Shown here one piece after another: positions 284-48,690 of a DNA stretch of 64,000 nucleotides. The stretch comes from Bacteroidota bacterium (GTDB lineage: Bacteria > Bacteroidota > Bacteroidia > Flavobacteriales_D > Crocinitomicaceae): NCBI GenBank assembly GCA_016192075.1, contig JACPUU010000009.1, forward strand, positions 62,001-126,000, in the 5' to 3' direction. How positions within the stretch are numbered: position 1 is the first letter of the stretch; the number at the start of each line of letters is the position of its first letter. The notes under the pieces were generated by a model. The model saw only the letters and a list, made by a program, of their open reading frames with translations, ran no database searches and had not been told where the DNA came from. A program made the position numbers and the translations under genes.

Positions 284-410
284 TACCAGGAACTACAAGC
301 TGTCGTACCCGGACTCTATTCCTGAATAAATTCATCCATTACCAGATTCATACAGATCTGTTGATTGGTTTTAGTTACATTCGGAGACACCTAAATCAAC
401 CGTATCTCTT

Positions 411-3302: not shown

Positions 3303-3305
3303 TCC

Positions 3306-3371
3306 ATTGCTGAAAAAACAGGGTCGTTGGTTCAAAAAATAGCATTTATTGTCTGACAATTGATAGGTTTA
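3306..3371 (+). promoter_or_regulatory. Promoter and double half-site operator of the LytTR regulator gene (copy A)
   Basis: Half-sites attgctgaa (3306-3314) and gttggttca (3326-3334) are spaced 20 bp start to start. After 29 bp comes TAGGTTTA (3364-3371), one mismatch from the Bacteroidota -7 element TAnnTTTG. The same layout occurs at 4220-4285, 5783-5849 and 7820-7886. Direct repeats two helical turns apart are typical of LytTR-domain binding sites (family knowledge), which suggests autoregulation (inference). The -7 element ends only 11 bp before the ATG, so the leader would be very short. Confidence 0.6.
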
Positions 3372-3382
3372 CAAAATTAAGC

Positions 3383-4123
3383 ATGGAAAAAATACGCGCG
3401 ATTATAGTTGACGATGAAGAAAGTGCACGGGATGTGCTTCAGAATTTACTGCTGAGGTTTTGCCCTGCGGTAGAATTAATCTGCAAATGCGAAAACCTCG
3501 TTCAGGCAGTGGAGCAAATCAAAAAACACAAGCCTGACCTCGTTTTTCTGGATATTGAAATGCCGCAGTACGCCGGTTATGAAATTGTACGGTTTTTTGA
3601 TGACGTCTATTTTGAAATGATTTTTGTAACGGCCTATGACAACCACGCTATTCGTGCGTTTGAAGTTGCTGCGGTTGATTATTTACTGAAGCCCATTGAC
3701 ATTGAGCGGCTTAAAAACTCCATTTTAAGGGTGAGTAAAAAAATCAGCAAAGGCAATGCCGGTCAGCTTAGTATTCTGAGCCAGGTGCTGGAATCCAAAT
3801 CTGTCAAAAATATAGTCATTACGGATAAGGGTGAGCAATACATCGTTCCGGTTGAAACAATCATTGCAATTGAAGCGCAGGAATCCTATTGCCAGATTTA
3901 CACGTCTTCAAAAAAATACCTGGTCAGTAAAAACCTGAAACATTTTGAGACCATTCTGGAGGGAAATAAACAATTTTTCCGCACGCACAAATCCTGGGTT
4001 ATCAACAGCAAACACATGCTGCACTATTCCAAATCAAACTTTACCATTGCGCTCACAAATAATATTATTGCCAGGCTGAGCAAATACAAAAAAGAGGAGT
4101 TTGAAAAAGCAATTCTTTCTTAG
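3383..4123 (+). CDS. LytTR-family response regulator
   Basis: 246 residues. The N-terminal receiver domain has the acidic pair in AIIVDDEES, the phospho-acceptor Asp57 in LVFLDIEMP, and the conserved Thr and Lys in VTAYDNHA and YLLKPIDIE. The C-terminal LytTR DNA-binding domain (about 145-245) contains IAIEAQESYCQIYTSSKKYL and FFRTHKSWVINSKH. It follows the propeller kinase by 80 bp and should be its partner. Its own promoter and three downstream secreted-protein promoters share a paired half-site, so it probably controls itself and that group (inference from spacing and repetition). Confidence 0.93.
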   Translation: MEKIRAIIVDDEESARDVLQNLLLRFCPAVELICKCENLVQAVEQIKKHKPDLVFLDIEMPQYAGYEIVRFFDDVYFEMIFVTAYDNHAIRAFEVAAVDYLLKPIDIERLKNSILRVSKKISKGNAGQLSILSQVLESKSVKNIVITDKGEQYIVPVETIIAIEAQESYCQIYTSSKKYLVSKNLKHFETILEGNKQFFRTHKSWVINSKHMLHYSKSNFTIALTNNIIARLSKYKKEEFEKAILS

Positions 4124-4219
4124 TATCTGAATAAACATCCGTTAATTGATCGCACCCGATCTTTTGTACTTTCCGTCTCTTTCTGCCACGGGGCAGGTTC
4201 AATAGTCCTTTCGAATGCT

Positions 4220-4285
4220 ATTCATGAGGTAAATCGGCTGTTGGTGAATTTTATCCAAAAGCACAGCTACAGGACCCTATTTTTG
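4220..4285 (+). promoter_or_regulatory. Promoter and double half-site operator (copy B)
   Basis: Half-sites attcatgag (4220-4228) and gttggtgaa (4240-4248) are 20 bp apart. After 29 bp there is an exact TAnnTTTG element, TATTTTTG (4278-4285), 24 bp before the chosen ATG at 4310. The first half-site is the weakest of the set, with 6 of 9 matches to attgctgaa. The -7 element lies inside the longer reading frame that could begin at TTG 4241, which supports the start at 4310. Confidence 0.55.
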
Positions 4286-4309
4286 GTCTATCCTAAAAAT
4301 CTTTTTATT

Positions 4310-5593
4310 ATGAAAATAAAAATAAACGTCACCCTTTTACTTTGCATTTTAGCCTTTCAACCGCTGAATGCACGAACATTTTTCAGAGCGGCCATTTTTG
4401 CAAAATCCAGTGTAGCCGCCACTACTGCCCTCGTTAGCCAATCAGTCACAGCTTCAACCTGGCTTGATGGCGAATACGCCTTTTTCAAAAGACAAGGCGA
4501 TATTCTTGTAAAACAGACGGAGAAAAGAAAACTCACGTTTACAAAAAATGAAAAAGGAGAAGTTATTGAATTTACATTGGATGACTTAACCTACAGGGGT
4601 GATGAATCCGGCAAATCTGAATTCGTTCGTTATTTTCAATCTGATAACGGATATTGTCTTTACTTTACTCCCAAAACCATCTACCAGTTTGAATCGCCGG
4701 GCTCTACTACGATAAAAGGGAGTATTGGTGCAAAAGGCAATATCGCCGCACGAACAACGATCGAAACCTTCTTAACTGAATCTGTAGTCATGCAAGAAGA
4801 AGACATTAAAAAATACAATGAGAAGATGGCCGAAGAAGCACGGCTTGCGCAACTGGAAAAGGAGAAAAAATTCTCAATCAAAGACAAAGAAGTCAGCAAA
4901 CTTGAAATAGTCAACATTGTAATTCCCGAAAAATTTGGTCACTATGTTGGATTTACCTACGACATTAAAGCAACGTTAAAAGATGGTTCCGTTTTGTCTA
5001 CAGACAACGGCGGTTTTCGGTCAGACTATGAAATTACCTATGTCGGAGGTGAATATACGGATGGAAAAATTCAGGGCACATTTATAAAGGATGATAAAAT
5101 AACAATTACGGTTGTCTCAAAATTCAATCCGGCAGATAAAGTTACCGCCGATGTTGTGGTTTTATACAACCAGGATATTTCATTCAACTACACAGCAACC
5201 GGATGGTCAAGATCAGCCGGTGAATCTGCCAATAATTTTAAAATAGAAGTAAAGCAGGTAAAACACAAAGTAAACGGTACGTTATTAAATGCTGTCCGAA
5301 TCACAAACGTAACCACGGGAACGGTGGTTGCGCAATTTAAAATTGGAGTTGATCAGACGTTACATTTTTACTGCAACGGAGGATATGGTGGTAGCGATGA
5401 TGGTTATGGAAAAGACGGTGGTAACGGCGGAAACCTGACCGTAATTAAAGATCCATCTGTGAAAACGTTCAACCTGGATTATTCCAATCGTGGCGGTAAA
5501 GCCGGTAAAGGTACAACATCCAGTTACGATGGCCGGGCCGGAAGAGACGGTGAATACATACAGGAATCTGCCGCGGTAACATTCCCTCTTTAA
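4310..5593 (+). CDS. Secreted protein with a glycine-rich C-terminal tail, unknown function
   Basis: 427 residues from ATG 4310, which gives a clear signal peptide (MKIKINVTLLLCILAFQPLNA); an in-frame TTG at 4241 is rejected because the promoter lies downstream of it. The N-terminal part contains DGEYAFFKRQGDILVKQTEK and an acidic/basic helix near 165-185 rich in E, K and A. The middle is beta-rich. The last 70 residues are glycine/aspartate-rich (GGYGGSDDGYGKDGGNGG, DGRAGRDGEY), resembling collagen-like or flexible Gly tails. No T9SS tail is seen. It lies behind a LytTR-type operator and ahead of a strong terminator. I do not recognise a family. Confidence 0.75.
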   Translation: MKIKINVTLLLCILAFQPLNARTFFRAAIFAKSSVAATTALVSQSVTASTWLDGEYAFFKRQGDILVKQTEKRKLTFTKNEKGEVIEFTLDDLTYRGDESGKSEFVRYFQSDNGYCLYFTPKTIYQFESPGSTTIKGSIGAKGNIAARTTIETFLTESVVMQEEDIKKYNEKMAEEARLAQLEKEKKFSIKDKEVSKLEIVNIVIPEKFGHYVGFTYDIKATLKDGSVLSTDNGGFRSDYEITYVGGEYTDGKIQGTFIKDDKITITVVSKFNPADKVTADVVVLYNQDISFNYTATGWSRSAGESANNFKIEVKQVKHKVNGTLLNAVRITNVTTGTVVAQFKIGVDQTLHFYCNGGYGGSDDGYGKDGGNGGNLTVIKDPSVKTFNLDYSNRGGKAGKGTTSSYDGRAGRDGEYIQESAAVTFPL

Positions 5594-5727
5594 AAAAGGA
5601 CACTTGTTTAAAATCAGTTTTATAAGAACGGCCTGCAATTTGGGGATTCAACCCATCACAGAATTCAGGACGAACAAAGCAATTGCCCTGCTTACTCTGT
5701 AAAAATCATACGCACAAAATTTACCAG

Positions 5728-5762
5728 CAGTCAACTTCAAAACGAAGTTGACTGTTTTTTTT
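5728..5762 (+). terminator. Rho-independent terminator
   Basis: A perfect 11-bp stem, cagtcaacttc (5728-5738) pairing with gaagttgactg (5744-5754), with a 5-nt loop, followed by eight T. It ends the Gly-tail protein gene and separates it from the next promoter. Confidence 0.9.
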
Positions 5763-5782
5763 ATCCGGTGGTCAAATAATCC

Positions 5783-5849
5783 ATTGCTGAATTCAATTGG
5801 TTATTGCTGAACAACAACTTTTGAAATCAAGCGCGTTGCCCTATCCTTG
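5783..5849 (+). promoter_or_regulatory. Promoter and double half-site operator (copy C)
   Basis: Two identical half-sites attgctgaa (5783-5791 and 5803-5811) are exactly 20 bp apart. After 30 bp comes TATCCTTG (5842-5849), a near match to TAnnTTTG, 23 bp before ATG 5873. The 15 bases taatccattgctgaa at 5777-5791 are also found exactly at 3300-3314 before the LytTR gene. The 29-bp block 5783-5811 reappears with two differences at 7820-7848. Confidence 0.65.
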
Positions 5850-5872
5850 CCGGATAAACAAATCAATTGATT

Positions 5873-7765
5873 ATGAAAAAAGTTATACCTGGCATAATTT
5901 TCATTAGTGCTTTTGCATTCTTTTCAAGAGCCCAATCGCCTGATCTGATATGGGCTAATGGTTCAGGCAGTGCTGATTTTGAAATGGTCCGTGATATGAT
6001 AACAGACCAGGCAGGCAATGTTATTTCTGTTGGTCAGTTCACCAATACCGTTGATTTTGATCCGGGACCCGGCATTCATAACCTGACCAGTAATGGTGCT
6101 TCAGATATTTTTATTATGAAGCAGGATTCAGATGGAAATTTGCTGTGGGCTTACAACATTGGTGATTATGACAGTGATGCGGCATACGGCGTGGGTGTTG
6201 ATGCATTAAACAACATTTATGTAACCGGTGTATTCAGATATGAGGTTGATTTCGATCCGGGTCCGGGAGATTACACGATCGGTTACTGGGGCACTAACGC
6301 CGGCCAGGTATTTTTACTCAAATTAAATTCCGATGGTGATCTTACCTGGGTGAACTGGATGGGTATAACCTCCGGAACAAGCCAGGGTCTTGTAATAACT
6401 GTTGAGCCTAACGGGCAGGCAATCATCTCAGGAACGTTCTACGGTACAGTTGATTTTGACCCGGCTGCCGGAACAACCAATCTTACAGCCAATATGACAA
6501 CCAACTACGATATCTTTCTTGCCAGTTACAACACCATGGGTGATATTAGCTGGGCTTATGGATTCGGAGGCACAAGCGGCAACAATTTTCCAGAGGATAT
6601 TACACTGGATGTAACAAACAATATTATTCTGACAGGGTCTTTTGGCGGAACCGCAGACCTTGATCCAACGGCTGGTGATCAAACCGTTGTTTCGCAGGGA
6701 TATGATGATGCATTTATTATGAAGCTGACATCAGGCGGTATGTTTCTATGGGCAAAAACCATCGGCAGTATCTGGGGAGATTATGGTTTTGCCACAGTAG
6801 CAGATTCGAACGAAGACATCTATTTTACCGGGTCATTCAGGCAGGATATTGATCTTGATCCGGGAGCGGGTACAGCCAATTATTCGATTGGGTCCAATGA
6901 AAACACATTTCTCATCAAACTTTCCTGGAACGGAACCTTTGTCTGGGCAAAGACGTTTGAAAATGGTTACAATCGTCCGCGATCGGTTGATCTGGATGAA
7001 AACGACAACCTGTATGTTGTTGGTGGCTATTCCATGACAGCTGATTTTGACCCGGGAGTTGGTGTAGTAAATCATACCAGCTCTGACAATTTTGACGATG
7101 TTTTTATGGTGAAATTGGATCCGGATGGATTATATCAGTCCTCTTTCACGTTTGGAACAACAACTGATGACCGCGGCGAAGCAATTTCTGTGGTGAGTTC
7201 AGATGAGTTTTACATAGCCGGATTTTTTAACGGTACCGTCGATTTTAATCCTGCCCCGGATACATACGCACTAACATCAAATGGAAGCACCGACAACTTT
7301 GTTGCCAGGTATGGTACATGTAGCCTGAATCTTTCTGTTTCAACATCAGGAGTTACGTTAACGGCTGATCAATCAGGAGCAACGTATGCCTGGATGGACT
7401 GCAACCTGTTCTCAACCATTGGGGTTACAACACAAAGTCTGACGCCTGCATCTGATGGTGATTATGCGGTAATTATTACGCAAGGCGGATGCAAAGACAC
7501 GTCAACCTGCTATTCAGTTGTGGGAGTTGGAATAGACGAACATTCAGCTACTTCAATTGCGCTTTTTCCAAATCCGGCACAATCAAATCTGACCATTGAA
7601 GTAACAGAACCCATTGAATTTATCCAGATCTTTAATTCAACCGGAACGCTTGTTCAAACAGAAGTAAAAAACAGTTTCTCTGTAGAGAACCTTCCGGCAG
7701 GAGTGTATGTTCTGCAGGTTCAAACCAAAAGCGGAATTTCAACTGCCCGGTTTGTAAAAGAATAA
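5873..7765 (+). CDS. T9SS-secreted SBBP-like beta-propeller protein
   Basis: 630 residues from ATG 5873, preferred over the TTG six bases upstream. The signal peptide ends near FFSRAQ. About nine repeats each carry a VDFDPGPG-type strand (TVDFDPGPG, EVDFDPGPG, TADLDPTAG, DIDLDPGAG) with GNVISVGQF-like turns, a bacterial SBBP-like propeller. Then follow an Ig-like module with paired cysteines (TYAWMDCN and GCKDTSTCY) and a type A T9SS sorting domain (ALFPNPAQSNLTIEV to the end, VYVLQVQTKSGISTARFVKE). It is expected to reach the cell surface or medium through T9SS. The tail is nearly identical to that of the next gene. Confidence 0.9.
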   Translation: MKKVIPGIIFISAFAFFSRAQSPDLIWANGSGSADFEMVRDMITDQAGNVISVGQFTNTVDFDPGPGIHNLTSNGASDIFIMKQDSDGNLLWAYNIGDYDSDAAYGVGVDALNNIYVTGVFRYEVDFDPGPGDYTIGYWGTNAGQVFLLKLNSDGDLTWVNWMGITSGTSQGLVITVEPNGQAIISGTFYGTVDFDPAAGTTNLTANMTTNYDIFLASYNTMGDISWAYGFGGTSGNNFPEDITLDVTNNIILTGSFGGTADLDPTAGDQTVVSQGYDDAFIMKLTSGGMFLWAKTIGSIWGDYGFATVADSNEDIYFTGSFRQDIDLDPGAGTANYSIGSNENTFLIKLSWNGTFVWAKTFENGYNRPRSVDLDENDNLYVVGGYSMTADFDPGVGVVNHTSSDNFDDVFMVKLDPDGLYQSSFTFGTTTDDRGEAISVVSSDEFYIAGFFNGTVDFNPAPDTYALTSNGSTDNFVARYGTCSLNLSVSTSGVTLTADQSGATYAWMDCNLFSTIGVTTQSLTPASDGDYAVIITQGGCKDTSTCYSVVGVGIDEHSATSIALFPNPAQSNLTIEVTEPIEFIQIFNSTGTLVQTEVKNSFSVENLPAGVYVLQVQTKSGISTARFVKE

Positions 7766-7810
7766 TTTTTGTTTTTGATTAGTAAGGCCCCATTCTTAAC
7801 CGGATGGGGC
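7563..7810 (+). repeat. Copy 1 of a 248-bp repeat (T9SS tail plus terminator)
   Basis: It aligns without gaps to 9367-9614, with 18 mismatches by eye. It covers the last 67 codons, the stop codon, the 3' spacer and the terminator stem. The preceding parts of the two genes are much less alike, so the tail behaves as a module that was recently copied or is kept alike by gene conversion. Confidence 0.9.
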
Positions 7811-7816
7811 TTTTTT
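7785..7816 (+). terminator. Rho-independent terminator
   Basis: Stem gccccat (7787-7793) pairs with atggggc (7804-7810) across a 10-nt loop, followed by six T. It is part of the 248-bp repeat. Confidence 0.85.
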
Positions 7817-7819
7817 GCT

Positions 7820-7886
7820 ATTACTGAATTCAATTGGCTATTGCTGAAAGTTAAAACGGTATTTACCCGGCGTTGCTCTATTCTTG
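7820..7886 (+). promoter_or_regulatory. Promoter and double half-site operator (copy D)
   Basis: Half-sites attactgaa (7820-7828) and attgctgaa (7840-7848) are 20 bp apart. After 30 bp comes TATTCTTG (7879-7886), a TAnnTTTG-like element 21 bp before ATG 7908. It starts only a few bases after the previous terminator. Confidence 0.65.
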
Positions 7887-7907: not shown

Positions 7908-9569
7908 ATGAAAAAATTTATACTTTCCATTTTTGCAGTTCCGCTTATTTTTAATTCCGGTTATTCGCAACTTAATCTTGTGAGTAACATGAATCCGGGT
8001 GCAACAAGTTCTATACCGGATTTTCTCTACGTATTCAATGACAAAGTCTACTACACCGCCGATGATGGAACGTTTGGCGCTGAAGTTTGGGAGTACAACG
8101 GATCCGCTTCACCACAACTCGATTATGAAGTAAACACATCCGGCTCAAGTGCAACCGCCGGCCACTTCTGCGAATTCAATGGTAAGCTCTGTTTTTCAGG
8201 ATATGAGTCAGTCTATGGCAATGAGCTTTATGAATACGACGGAATAAATGCACCTGTGCGAATTTCAGATATTAATCCAGGTAGTGCCAATTCAATTCCT
8301 ACCGGGATGACCGTTTTTAACGGCAAACTTTACTTTTATGGAGTAGGCCCGGGTAATGACTATGAGTTTTATGTTTACGATGGTATTAATCCGCCATCAT
8401 TGGTAGCTAATATAAATCCAACCGGAAATTCTTTTCCCGCCGGATTCACCGAATTTAACGGAAAATTATACTTCAGTGCAAATGATGGCGTAAACGGCAT
8501 TGAACTATGGGAATATGACGGAACAAATCCACCAACCATGCTTTTGGACATTAATCCAGGTACAAATAATTCCATTCCTCAGTATTTTAAAGTTTACAAC
8601 AATAAACTTTATTTCAATGCTGACAACGGTGTTAACGGAACAGAAATATGGATGTATGACGGAACAAACCCTCCGGCTATGGTTGTTGATATGATCGCTG
8701 GTTCAGGTTCTTTTGATCCAAGATATTTTTATGTGTATAACAGCAAATTAATTTTCAGCGCCATTGATGCTGTTGCCGGAAATGAACTGTGGCAATACGA
8801 TGGAGTCAATACCCCAACACTGGTTTTTGACATCAACACCAATCCGTCCATTGGCCTTCACAATTCACATCCGCGCCATTTTATTGAATACAACAACCTG
8901 CTTTATTTCAGAGCGCAGGATGAAACACATGGAAGAGAATTGTGGGCCTGGGATGGTGTAAATAATCCTGTTTTTATTGTTGATATAAATCCTGGTACGG
9001 CACATTCATCGGAAGACTGGAATCTGAATACAACCAAACGAATGGTGGTATTAAATGGCAAATTGATTTTAGCTGCCGACGATGGTGTTGTTGGTGAAGA
9101 ACTTTTTGAATATACCGGCTGCCTGGTCAATGCGGCTGTTACCGAATCAAACATGATCATTACAGCAACGCAGTCCGGCGCTTCTTATCAGTGGATTGAC
9201 TGTAACACAAATACACCAATCTCTGGTGAAACCAATCAAAGTTTTACAGCAACCGCTGACGGTGATTATGCTGTTATTGTCGCTGACGGAGCATGCATTG
9301 ACACATCTGTTTGTACCACCATTCTGGGACTTGGTTTGAATAACGATTCGCAAAACAGGCTTGCTGTTTTTCCAAATCCGGCACAAACAAATCTGACCAT
9401 TGAAATAACAGAACCCATTGAATTTATCCGGATCTTTAATTCAACCGGAACGCTTGTTCAAACTGAAGTAAAAAACAGTTTCCCGGTAGAAAACCTTCCG
9501 GCCGGAATGTATGTTTTGCAGGTTCAAACGGAAAGCGGAATTTCAACAACACGATTTGTAAAAGAATAA
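7908..9569 (+). CDS. T9SS-secreted ELWxxDGT-type beta-propeller protein
   Basis: 553 residues from ATG 7908; the upstream in-frame TTG at 7884 lies inside the -7 element. The signal peptide ends near NSGYSQ. About eight repeats follow the pattern FNGKLYFSANDGVNGIELWE, then YDGTNPP, the ELWxxDGT family. An Ig-like module (SYQWIDCN, ACIDTSVC) and a type A T9SS sorting domain (AVFPNPAQTNLTIEI to TTRFVKE) follow. The architecture matches the preceding gene but with a different propeller family. It is likely surface-exposed or released; the ligand is unknown. Confidence 0.9.
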   Translation: MKKFILSIFAVPLIFNSGYSQLNLVSNMNPGATSSIPDFLYVFNDKVYYTADDGTFGAEVWEYNGSASPQLDYEVNTSGSSATAGHFCEFNGKLCFSGYESVYGNELYEYDGINAPVRISDINPGSANSIPTGMTVFNGKLYFYGVGPGNDYEFYVYDGINPPSLVANINPTGNSFPAGFTEFNGKLYFSANDGVNGIELWEYDGTNPPTMLLDINPGTNNSIPQYFKVYNNKLYFNADNGVNGTEIWMYDGTNPPAMVVDMIAGSGSFDPRYFYVYNSKLIFSAIDAVAGNELWQYDGVNTPTLVFDINTNPSIGLHNSHPRHFIEYNNLLYFRAQDETHGRELWAWDGVNNPVFIVDINPGTAHSSEDWNLNTTKRMVVLNGKLILAADDGVVGEELFEYTGCLVNAAVTESNMIITATQSGASYQWIDCNTNTPISGETNQSFTATADGDYAVIVADGACIDTSVCTTILGLGLNNDSQNRLAVFPNPAQTNLTIEITEPIEFIRIFNSTGTLVQTEVKNSFPVENLPAGMYVLQVQTESGISTTRFVKE

Positions 9570-9614
9570 TTTTTGCTTTTGATCAGTAAGGCCCCATTCT
9601 TAACCGGATGGGGC
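9367..9614 (+). repeat. Copy 2 of the 248-bp repeat (T9SS tail plus terminator)
   Basis: Ungapped partner of 7563-7810 at a constant offset of 1804 bp. Many differences fall at third codon positions, so the encoded tail stays functional. Confidence 0.9.
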
Positions 9615-9617
9615 CTT
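9588..9617 (+). terminator. Terminator hairpin
   Basis: Stem aaggccccat (9588-9597) pairs with atggggcctt (9608-9617), loop 10 nt, followed by an AT-rich stretch rather than a pure T run. Confidence 0.75.
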
Positions 9618-9725
9618 ATTATTTTAAATTTGAATAAACGACTGAAAAACAGAACTATAGCTCTCAAAACAGGCGCTCCTTGTAACTTTTAGCCGGCAAA
9701 ATTGTTTCACTATCAAACGCGATTG

Positions 9726-28837: not shown

Positions 28838-29848
28838 GTGAACCAGAAAATTATACGTGCACTTCATTCCCTTGCCTGGGCGCTGGCATTTATAGCCGGA
28901 TTTTCGGTTTATGCGCAATTCATTGATCCTGACACCGCCTTTGCACGCACTATTGTTAACGTGGGGTTGCTGGCCCTGCTTTTTTACACAAACATTCACC
29001 TGATAGCCCGCTATTATGAGCACGGCAGAAAAGAATACTATTACCTGCTAAGCACGTTGCTTGTGCTGTTTATCATGGCTATTCGCATAACACTGAATTA
29101 CGTTTTTGCAACCTACACCGATTCAGCCACCATTCCTGAAAAACCCATCGTCTATATTGCTGTCACCTGCATTACATCAATCATTATCTACATTCTGAGC
29201 AGCCTGCTGGCGGTTATGCAAAACCGAAACAAAGCTGAAAAAAGGCATCTTGAACAGCTGAATCAATTGCAGCAATCACAGCTTAAATTTTTAAAGGCAC
29301 AAATTAATCCGCACTTTTTGTTTAATACACTCAACAATATTTATGCGCTTGTTTTAGCAAAATCTGACCGGGCTCCTGAAATGCTGGTCAAACTTTCAGA
29401 ACTGTTGCGGTATGCCATTTACCAGGAACCGGATTCAAACGTAAATCTGAAAAAGGAACTGGAACAGGTTTCAAAATACATTGAATTATTTCGCATGCGC
29501 AGCAAACAACCGCTGCCTATACTGTGGGTGCAGGCACTGGATGATGAAGAGTACCAGATTCCGCCCATGATGCTGATCAGCCTTGTTGAAAATGCCTTTA
29601 AACACGGTGATATTGCAGAAAACGCGAATGCCACGTGCCACTTTAACCTTGAAACACGAAAAGGCGTGCTGCATTTTTCAGCCGAAAATTCATTCAACCC
29701 AAACAAAGTAAAAGACACCACCCGTGGAATAGGCTTGAAAAACCTGGAAGAAACCCTGTCTATTCTATACCCCGGAAATTTTGAGTTTAAACATGTTGCA
29801 AAAAACGGTATTTTTAGAATTGACCTTAAAATAATGCATGGCCATTAA
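28838..29848 (+). CDS. LytS-type sensor histidine kinase
   Basis: 336 residues from GTG 28838. Four N-terminal membrane helices (about 8-140) are followed by a short coiled coil (KAEKRHLEQLNQLQQSQLK) and a His_kinase domain with phospho-acceptor His in QINPHFLFNTLNNIY and N-box IPPMMLISLVENAFKHGD. There is no extracytoplasmic sensor domain, so the signal is probably felt in the membrane. It overlaps the next gene by 11 bp. Confidence 0.92.
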   Translation: MNQKIIRALHSLAWALAFIAGFSVYAQFIDPDTAFARTIVNVGLLALLFYTNIHLIARYYEHGRKEYYYLLSTLLVLFIMAIRITLNYVFATYTDSATIPEKPIVYIAVTCITSIIIYILSSLLAVMQNRNKAEKRHLEQLNQLQQSQLKFLKAQINPHFLFNTLNNIYALVLAKSDRAPEMLVKLSELLRYAIYQEPDSNVNLKKELEQVSKYIELFRMRSKQPLPILWVQALDDEEYQIPPMMLISLVENAFKHGDIAENANATCHFNLETRKGVLHFSAENSFNPNKVKDTTRGIGLKNLEETLSILYPGNFEFKHVAKNGIFRIDLKIMHGH

Positions 29849-30566
29849 AACAATTATTGTTGATGATGAGTATTTGGGTATTCAGGTGCTGGAAAATTTT
29901 GTTTCAAAAATTCCGACCCTGAACCTGTGCGGAACATTTGAAAATCCGCTGGAAGCCATTGACTATATTCAGCGAAACCCGGTTGACCTGATTTTTCTGG
30001 ATATTCAAATGCCGCAAATCAGCGGCACCAGCTTTTTAAAATCATTGTCAAAACCACCGCTTGTTGTTTTTACCACCGCCTATTCTGAGTACGCTGTTGA
30101 AGCATTTGACCTCAACGTTGTGGATTACCTGTTAAAGCCCATTCCGTTCGAACGCTTTTTGAAAACCATCAATAAAATCAATGACATTTTTCAGCGCGGA
30201 AACAATTCACCTGATCTCAAAAAAACGGAAACAGGTACACTGACGGTTAAATCAGACGGGGCCCTGTACAAAATACCATTCGCTGAAATACGCTACATTG
30301 AAAGTGACCGGGAATATGTTAAACTGTTTACTCAAAACAAACGGTATTATTACCTTGAAACCATGAAAAACCTGGAAGAGTCTTTACCCCCTGACCAGTT
30401 TATACGGGTTCACAAATCATACATTGTTTCAAAGGCCTGTGTCCGGTCTATTGACGGCAACCAGCTTGACCTGGGAGGTGTTCAGATACCGGTAAGCCGG
30501 GAAAAAAGAACGGATATTATAACGGCATTATTCGGAAAACCAACCGGTAAAAAACCGCAGAATTAA
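29838..30566 (+). CDS. LytTR-family response regulator
   Basis: 242 residues. Receiver domain: TIIVDDEYL, phospho-acceptor Asp55 in LIFLDIQMP, TTAYSEYA and YLLKPIPFE. LytTR domain (about 135-235): IRYIESDREYVKLFTQNKRYYYLETMKNLEESL and FIRVHKSYIV. It is the partner of the overlapping kinase. No TTGCTGAA-type paired site was seen before this operon, so its target site probably differs from that of the first LytTR pair. Confidence 0.92.
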   Translation: MAIKTIIVDDEYLGIQVLENFVSKIPTLNLCGTFENPLEAIDYIQRNPVDLIFLDIQMPQISGTSFLKSLSKPPLVVFTTAYSEYAVEAFDLNVVDYLLKPIPFERFLKTINKINDIFQRGNNSPDLKKTETGTLTVKSDGALYKIPFAEIRYIESDREYVKLFTQNKRYYYLETMKNLEESLPPDQFIRVHKSYIVSKACVRSIDGNQLDLGGVQIPVSREKRTDIITALFGKPTGKKPQN

Positions 30567-47871: not shown

Positions 47872-48690
47872 TTACCTGGTTAATTTTTGGGTATAGGCAA
47901 CGTTATCGGTAATAATCCGCAACGGGGCAAAGGTAAGGGCTCTCTCTATTTCTTCGCGCGTTTTGACACCAAAAACACTGTAATTTATTCCTGCCCCCTG
48001 GAGGGTTTGAACCACCCCGGCATTCATGGCCGTAAGTGAAATACAAAGTTCCCGCGCTGCGCCTGATTCAAAAATTTCAATGCCCAGCCCGATATTTTCT
48101 GTTTCAAATGAGCGTACAATGCTGCTATCTGTAAGAGCCATCAAAAGGTCTGCAGTACGACTATTGACAACTATGTCTGAACGTTCTGCTGCAGAAAAGG
48201 CTGCCATTGATTTATTCAATGCGCGGTTAAAAACAGCAAAATCAATGTCAACAGAATCACAATAATGGTAAGGCTTCAGGTCAAGAAAAAGTTTTTTATG
48301 ACGCTCTGTGCAAATTTGCAGAACCTCATCCAGGGTGGCAATTTCATAACGGCTATGATAGAGATCGAGGTTGCTGAGTTGTGATAAATTATAGTTTGGA
48401 ATGCAACCGGTAAGATGTGTGTTTTCATCCAGGTAAGCATCGTGATAAAGTACCAGCACACTGTCTTTTGTCATTTGCACATCTACCTCTACCCCTTCGG
48501 CATCCAGCACATCCAGGGCATAAATGACCGATTCGGCTGTATTGGCCGGATACACCCACCGTTCAGGATAGATTGTAGTTCCGGCGTGACCGTACACCAG
48601 CGAATCAGCATAGGTTTCTTCTTTTTTGCAGGCAAAATTACCTGCCAGAAAAAGTATGCCAGTAATATTTAATGCCAATCGAAAATTCAT
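47872..48690 (-). CDS. Glycerophosphodiester phosphodiesterase-like lipoprotein
   Basis: 272 residues. Lipoprotein signal ending LAGNFAC. GDPD core: YGHAGTTIYPERW...NTAESVIYALDVLDAEGVEVDVQMTKDSVLVLYHD, which keeps the catalytic His, Glu, Asp and second His, although the first motif is HAG rather than HRG. It probably releases glycerol-3-phosphate or other alcohols in the periplasm. It overlaps the barrel gene by 53 bp. Confidence 0.88.
   Translation of the reverse strand: MNFRLALNITGILFLAGNFACKKEETYADSLVYGHAGTTIYPERWVYPANTAESVIYALDVLDAEGVEVDVQMTKDSVLVLYHDAYLDENTHLTGCIPNYNLSQLSNLDLYHSRYEIATLDEVLQICTERHKKLFLDLKPYHYCDSVDIDFAVFNRALNKSMAAFSAAERSDIVVNSRTADLLMALTDSSIVRSFETENIGLGIEIFESGAARELCISLTAMNAGVVQTLQGAGINYSVFGVKTREEIERALTFAPLRIITDNVAYTQKLTR

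Follow-up and report, generated by a model that had tools for sequence, protein, structure and literature searches.

Predicted operators of a propeller-kinase/LytTR pair before genes for regulator and surface proteins in a member of the Crocinitomicaceae

Genes and paired repeats at the locus

Four pairs of direct repeats, each preceding a gene, were studied together with the neighbouring two-component pair in a stretch of DNA (the window, 64 kb, G000:C9:62001-126000) from a genome of 4.65 Mb that is 99.9% complete. The genes P0001 to P0005, the four pairs and their -7 elements are all on the plus strand. The sensor histidine kinase P0001 (411..3302, 963 aa) contained a Reg_prop propeller, a Y_Y_Y domain, a transmembrane segment and a LytS-type His_kinase domain (motif QMNPHFIFNSLNSI); PF06580 scored 78.7 bits, over its cut-off, and HATPase_c 19.9 bits, under its cut-off of 26.4. 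Neither REC nor a helix-turn-helix (HTH) was found in this protein, which separates it from the hybrid two-component systems (HTCS), where kinase, REC and an AraC HTH are joined in one polypeptide. The response regulator P0002 (3383..4123, 246 aa) carried REC followed by a LytTR DNA-binding domain (73.7 bits for PF00072 and 55.7 bits for PF04397, both over cut-off). A second LytTR regulator gene was present in the window at 29838-30566 (G000:C9:92264).

Downstream of the regulator, P0003 (4310..5593, 427 aa) displayed a signal peptide and a Gly-rich C-terminus and belongs to a family found beside these regulators; it gave no match in Pfam or NCBIfam, no type A sorting domain of the type IX secretion system (T9SS) was found in it, and its single-sequence AlphaFold model, at a pLDDT of 35, was uninformative. 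Proteins with a C-terminal PF18962/TIGR04183 domain over cut-off were taken as T9SS cargo, and this was the case for P0004 (5873..7765, 630 aa), with an SBBP-like propeller, and P0005 (7908..9569, 553 aa), an ELWxxDGT-repeat protein. An earlier note on this DNA had described two of the targets as secreted propellers, which is true of P0004; the first target, P0003, is an uncharacterised Gly-rich protein and no propeller, and P0005 is classed by its ELWxxDGT repeats. The C-terminal 152-aa regions of P0004 and P0005 were 64% identical and the terminators downstream near-identical (window 7313-7815 and 9117-9620), reflecting a local duplication.

The four pairs were found where the note had placed them (first repeats starting at 3306, 4220, 5783 and 7820), each with 20 bp from start to start. 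Predicted operator 1 (3304..3334; ccATTGCTGAA-n11-GTTGGTTCA), putatively autoregulatory, had a degenerate second half, and the -7 element TAGGTTTA (3364..3371) followed 29 bp past its repeat 2. The same distance separated predicted operator 2 (4218..4248; ctATTCATGAG-n11-GTTGGTGAA) from its -7 element TATTTTTG (4278..4285), and the distance was 30 bp both for predicted operator 3 (5781..5811; ccATTGCTGAA-n11-ATTGCTGAA; -7 element TATCCTTG, 5842..5849) and for predicted operator 4 (7818..7848; ctATTACTGAA-n11-ATTGCTGAA; -7 element TATTCTTG, 7879..7886). As proposed in the note, all four boxes resembled TAnnTTTG, with 5 or 6 of 6 letters matching. Promoters of this type and the T9SS sorting domains identify the DNA as that of a Bacteroidota.

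When the consensus first proposed, RTTGSTGAA, was applied with at most one mismatch per half, 5783 and 7820 alone qualified among the four; the second half of 3306 needed two mismatches, and 4220 (first half ATTCATGAG) was missed at two mismatches per half. The spacer was largely common to 5783 and 7820 and, because their genes share C-termini and terminators, this pair could stem from duplication and the independence of the two sites is doubtful. Within the window, just these two sites, perhaps duplicated, were convincing under that consensus; evidence from outside the window was therefore needed.

Motif, promoter layout and distribution among relatives

A search of genome contigs for related loci returned just remote regulators, mostly from other phyla. 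No genome of the same genus came up, and the relatives compared here belong to other genera; their regulator orthologs were 48-64% identical and nearly always adjoined an orthologous kinase of the P0001 type, pairs of propeller kinase and LytTR regulator being recurrent in this group. Exact RTTNNTRAA pairs were counted for 15 close orthologs in intergenic DNA near the regulator (the kinase-regulator gap and the DNA before the next genes, window excluded). Fourteen pairs had a spacing of 20 bp and six of 21 bp, as against 2 pairs over the 33 other spacings in the range 10-44, and control intergenic DNA of those loci (6x length, both strands counted) gave 3 exact pairs in total. When self-similarity was tested without any consensus, the excess at 20-21 bp was weak and stood out less than in the consensus-based count. 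All four window sites have the 20-bp spacing; relatives present 20 or 21 bp.

We aligned 30 relative sites picked by the RTTNNTRAA pattern only, with at most one mismatch across both halves. A C at position -2 of repeat 1, a feature not used in site selection, occurred in 30 of 30, and G was common four bases 5' of repeat 2. Because of this constant C the half-site is written YC-RTTNNTRAA; the paired half-site was thus real, but wider than the RTTGSTGAA first described, and site 4220 matched the new form with one mismatch. The TAnnTTTG box (at least 5 of 6 letters) lay at offset 29 in 18 sites and at offset 30 in 12, no other offset exceeding 2. These data bear on the explanation that the likeness arose from local gene or promoter duplication, with no common binding protein, to which the shared C-terminus of P0004 and P0005, their terminators and the common spacer of their sites lend some colour. 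Motif and geometry recurred before unrelated genes, at unlinked positions and in many genera, and the half-sites varied while the -2 C, the spacing and the -7 distance stayed constant; for the whole set this explanation is refuted and hardly credible, and duplication may still be the origin of the 5783/7820 pair.

A position weight matrix (PWM) constructed from 30 sites of other genomes, none from the window, was scanned over both strands of the 64 kb. Its first four matches were precisely the four reported sites (40.7 for 7820, 38.9 for 5783, 35.4 for 4220, and 25.4 for 3306); the fifth scored 18.6 (minus strand, 13739), and 20 Markov shuffles peaked at 6.8-20.3. An effect of chance or composition might be suspected from the abundance of TTGSTGAA-like words, as the pair pattern with up to three mismatches gave 506 matches genome-wide vs. 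138 for the reversed control and was of no use as a search. The blind ranking and the shuffles, together with the spacing specificity and the co-occurrence with the regulator presented below, refute such an effect and leave it next to no probability, in agreement with the earlier judgement that the four-promoter pattern was unlikely by chance.

For genome-wide searches a calibrated sequence-only profile of 27 sites (R1) was used. The leading hits were 7820 (28.3 bits, E 9e-6), 5783 (28.2 bits, E 9e-6), an unlinked site in contig C4, and 4220 (24.9 bits, E 1e-4). Weak R1 hits in two other contigs (G000:C19 and C12; 16-17 bits) were inside coding sequences and were dropped as sites. Three of the window sites (5783, 7820, and 4220) are strong, and the degenerate 3306 holds an orthologous position. 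A weak operator-like pair (PWM 16.9) was also seen 5' of the kinase gene (window 318-346), and similar weak pairs precede the kinase in two relatives (L143 and L145; about 23), a hint that the kinase gene may be under autoregulation of a degenerate kind.

Sigma-A promoters of Bacteroidota have a conserved -33 TTG/TTTG element. Between operator and -7 box no conserved element of this kind was found in the relative sites (5 of 30 had TTG at gap 18-22, with 2.8 expected). The -7 element of these promoters is TAnnTTTG, located at -12 to -5 (PMC9723704), and all four window sites conform to it; on this basis the repeats would run from about -71 to about -43 and have their midpoint near -57. The regulator might repress these promoters instead of activating them, since the sequence does not reveal direction and LytTR repression exists, as for AgrA at bsaA (PMC4227749). 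Repression is unlikely, however: the 29-30 bp between the repeats and the -7 element 3' of them are constant, the centre of the repeats is close to that of the sites from which AgrA activates (near -60; PMC4227749), and a conserved -33 element is missing, which together make up the layout of an activator-dependent promoter.

Across the family (240 genomes), the presence of R1 sites (E ≤ 5e-4) was compared with that of a regulator ortholog (≥50% identity). Sites occurred in 25 of the 26 genomes with an ortholog vs. 7 of the 214 others (Fisher 1.5e-26). Some of these genomes had supplied training sites; with all such genomes removed, to avoid circularity, the counts were 8/9 vs. 7/214 (p 4e-10). 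Close orthologs presented a site before the regulator gene itself; the scan of related genomes suggested in the note thus found the paired motif with TAnnTTTG recurring with the regulator, including before orthologous regulator genes. Distant orthologs (38-45%) had their own direct repeats, with a period of 20-21, before neighbouring secreted genes, and their half-sites differed (e.g., GTTCATGAA, GATTCATAAA or TTTCGTTAA). The LytTR segments ESY/HKSW/LSKYKK, which we take to align with contact regions of AgrA, were kept where the half-site was kept and changed (e.g., GSY/HRSH/SR-KK) where it differed.

Another regulator, either a different LytTR protein or an unrelated factor, could bind the sites, P0002 being merely one of its targets; 23 LytTR domains are encoded in the genome, and the regulator gene bears a site as a target would. 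We regard this as very unlikely, since genomes without a close ortholog have other LytTR regulators but almost never the sites, and changes in the half-site track those in the recognition segments of P0002 orthologs. A LytTR operator is reported to consist of two repeats, each 9-11 nt long, around a spacer of 11-13 nt, with no common consensus (PMC4847170), and the repeats found here, 9 nt in length and 11 or 12 nt apart, fit this geometry, consistent with the proposal that direct repeats about two turns apart represent the LytTR binding mode. By domain content and operator geometry P0002 is an ordinary LytTR response regulator and, from co-occurrence and the covariation of recognition segments, we infer that it binds the predicted operators.

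Predicted targets and mechanism

In loci of close orthologs, hits with a PWM total of at least 22 preceded the regulator, signal-peptide proteins or, weakly, the kinase, and a few lacked an assigned open reading frame (ORF); before signal-peptide proteins the distance from site to ATG was mostly 83-94 bp. Eight strong unlinked sites were inspected across five genomes of close relatives, and every one preceded a T9SS type A protein, the architectures including metalloprotease, propeller, Ig/laminin-G and PMP-repeat forms among others; three similar pairs are included, so that these targets amount to about five families. Among the linked targets tested that were not of the P0003 type, 13 of 14 were T9SS cargo, the exception being a 96-aa exported protein. 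T9SS type A genes number at least 150 per genome in this group, a few percent of genes; the enrichment is thus strong, yet the cargo selected is a small subset. The idea of a sensing-to-secretion regulon gains from these results: in close relatives almost every target, whether linked to the regulator or not, is T9SS cargo.

Proteins of the P0003 type were the second recurring target (window, L089, L146, and L147). The near-full-length copies found adjoined a regulator ortholog, and none was detected in the searched genomes lacking a close ortholog and site. In the family alignment (A2) the Gly-rich C-terminus weakly resembled an Obg-type GTPase segment (profile E 2e-4, which composition may explain). 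The fifth, unlinked site of the window genome (C4:~48609-48615, L233:4615; 27.6 bits), outside the window, lay 92 bp before the gene of a 235-aa lipoprotein, for which neither a family match nor a T9SS sorting domain was found.

Other kinds of target were seen in sister genera. In one of them (L269, L276, L281, and L288, plus the related L290) the site preceded an ORF-less stretch of ~75 nt, which has a conserved core, AATTC..CCTCC.ACCTA, and a hairpin resembling a terminator and is a candidate small RNA under LytTR control; an Rfam search of ORF-less targets found nothing. Sites in L273 and L291 preceded genes of 52- and 44-aa peptides (KSIS...IKGGTD...PRYKGSRG / PRYRGDRG) resembling GG-leader precursor peptides, and those in L284, L285, L286, L293, and L270 preceded small exported proteins, several of which end in a CGxTVKLSDYL-like sequence and form a recurring unnamed family.

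Judged by the motif, geometry, conservation, co-occurrence with the regulator and target classes observed, the four pairs are very probably operators of the regulator encoded at 3383-4123, in an autoregulated propeller-kinase/LytTR system that would activate a small regulon of surface proteins. The propeller kinase P0001 would sense an extracytoplasmic cue and phosphorylate P0002; two LytTR domains would next occupy the pair of YC-RTTNNTRAA half-sites, both on one face of the DNA at about -71 to -43, and the bound regulator may bring sigma-A RNA polymerase to a TAnnTTTG promoter devoid of a conserved -33 element. The predicted outputs are the regulator itself, which would give positive feedback, and a few exported proteins of the cell surface, for the most part T9SS cargo. 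A further extension would have the propeller read out secretion status, or the status of its own secreted products, with the regulator tuning the supply of dedicated cargo; such a T9SS feedback loop at the cargo level, which in sister genera would also command the small RNA and the short GG-leader-like peptides, is speculative and rather unlikely.

Several observations weigh against the operator interpretation or narrow it. Site 3306 was not outstanding genome-wide (R1 15.1 bits, behind two coding hits), and its backing thus comes from position and conservation before orthologous regulator genes, not from its own sequence. One genome with an ortholog, G139, had no site, and seven genomes without an ortholog of at least 50% carried one; among these seven, three look like coding matches (G118 and G124, in the same conserved coding stretch, and G031, with no usable -7 box), three came from assemblies of 67-83% completeness, and the remaining genome encodes an ortholog of 48% identity. 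In the window genome T9SS cargo made up only two of the four non-regulator targets. Targets were also more diverse in sister genera with 21-bp spacing, where ORF-less transcripts, short peptides and small exported proteins occurred beside T9SS proteins, so that a regulon of T9SS cargo does not hold everywhere.

With a defined operator, its promoter layout and the targets listed for more than 20 genomes, binding, specificity and the sensed signal are open to direct test, and the drift of half-sites between orthologs provides material toward a LytTR recognition code. The data also suggest that scattered individual T9SS cargo genes may be addressed by a sensor system of their own and not only via control of the secretion machinery.

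Comparison with known systems

In the literature searched, which was open-access only and makes absence weak evidence, we found neither LytTR control of T9SS cargo nor an operator or regulon for a propeller-kinase/LytTR pair, nor the combination of propeller sensor, Bacteroidota promoter and T9SS-cargo regulon. YpdA/YpdB of E. coli likewise joins a His_kinase-type sensor to a REC-LytTR regulator, with a very small target set and a tandem direct repeat of ~10 nt whose period is near two helical turns. In contrast, the YpdB site is GGCATTTCAT and the signal pyruvate (PMC4847170), whereas the system described here has a propeller as sensor, promoters with the Bacteroidota -7 element, and targets that are secreted. 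AgrC/AgrA resembles the present system in its LytTR direct repeats 5' of promoters (AgrA in PMC4227749).

The LytTR Regulatory Systems (LRS, HdrRM/BrsRM), formed by a regulator and a membrane inhibitor with no kinase, differ from P0002, which has REC and a kinase partner. The LytTR quorum systems AgrC/AgrA, ComD/ComE, and the Blp/Pln type share LytTR direct repeats 5' of promoters, autoregulation and secreted products as targets with the system described here. They differ in their peptide-sensing polytopic kinases and in belonging to Gram-positives, with no T9SS and no propeller sensor. PorY/PorX-SigP of Porphyromonas gingivalis is similar in tying two-component control to type IX secretion. 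PorX is not a LytTR protein. According to PMC4800418 and PMC8265659, it acts via an extracytoplasmic function (ECF) sigma factor on genes of T9SS components, whereas here cargo genes would be the targets, and of a LytTR regulator. The HTCS of Bacteroides have, like P0001, a Reg_prop/Y_Y_Y propeller in the periplasm as sensor, joined to a histidine kinase. In HTCS, REC and an AraC-type HTH are in the same chain and polysaccharide genes are controlled; in the locus studied here, by contrast, kinase and LytTR regulator are separate genes.

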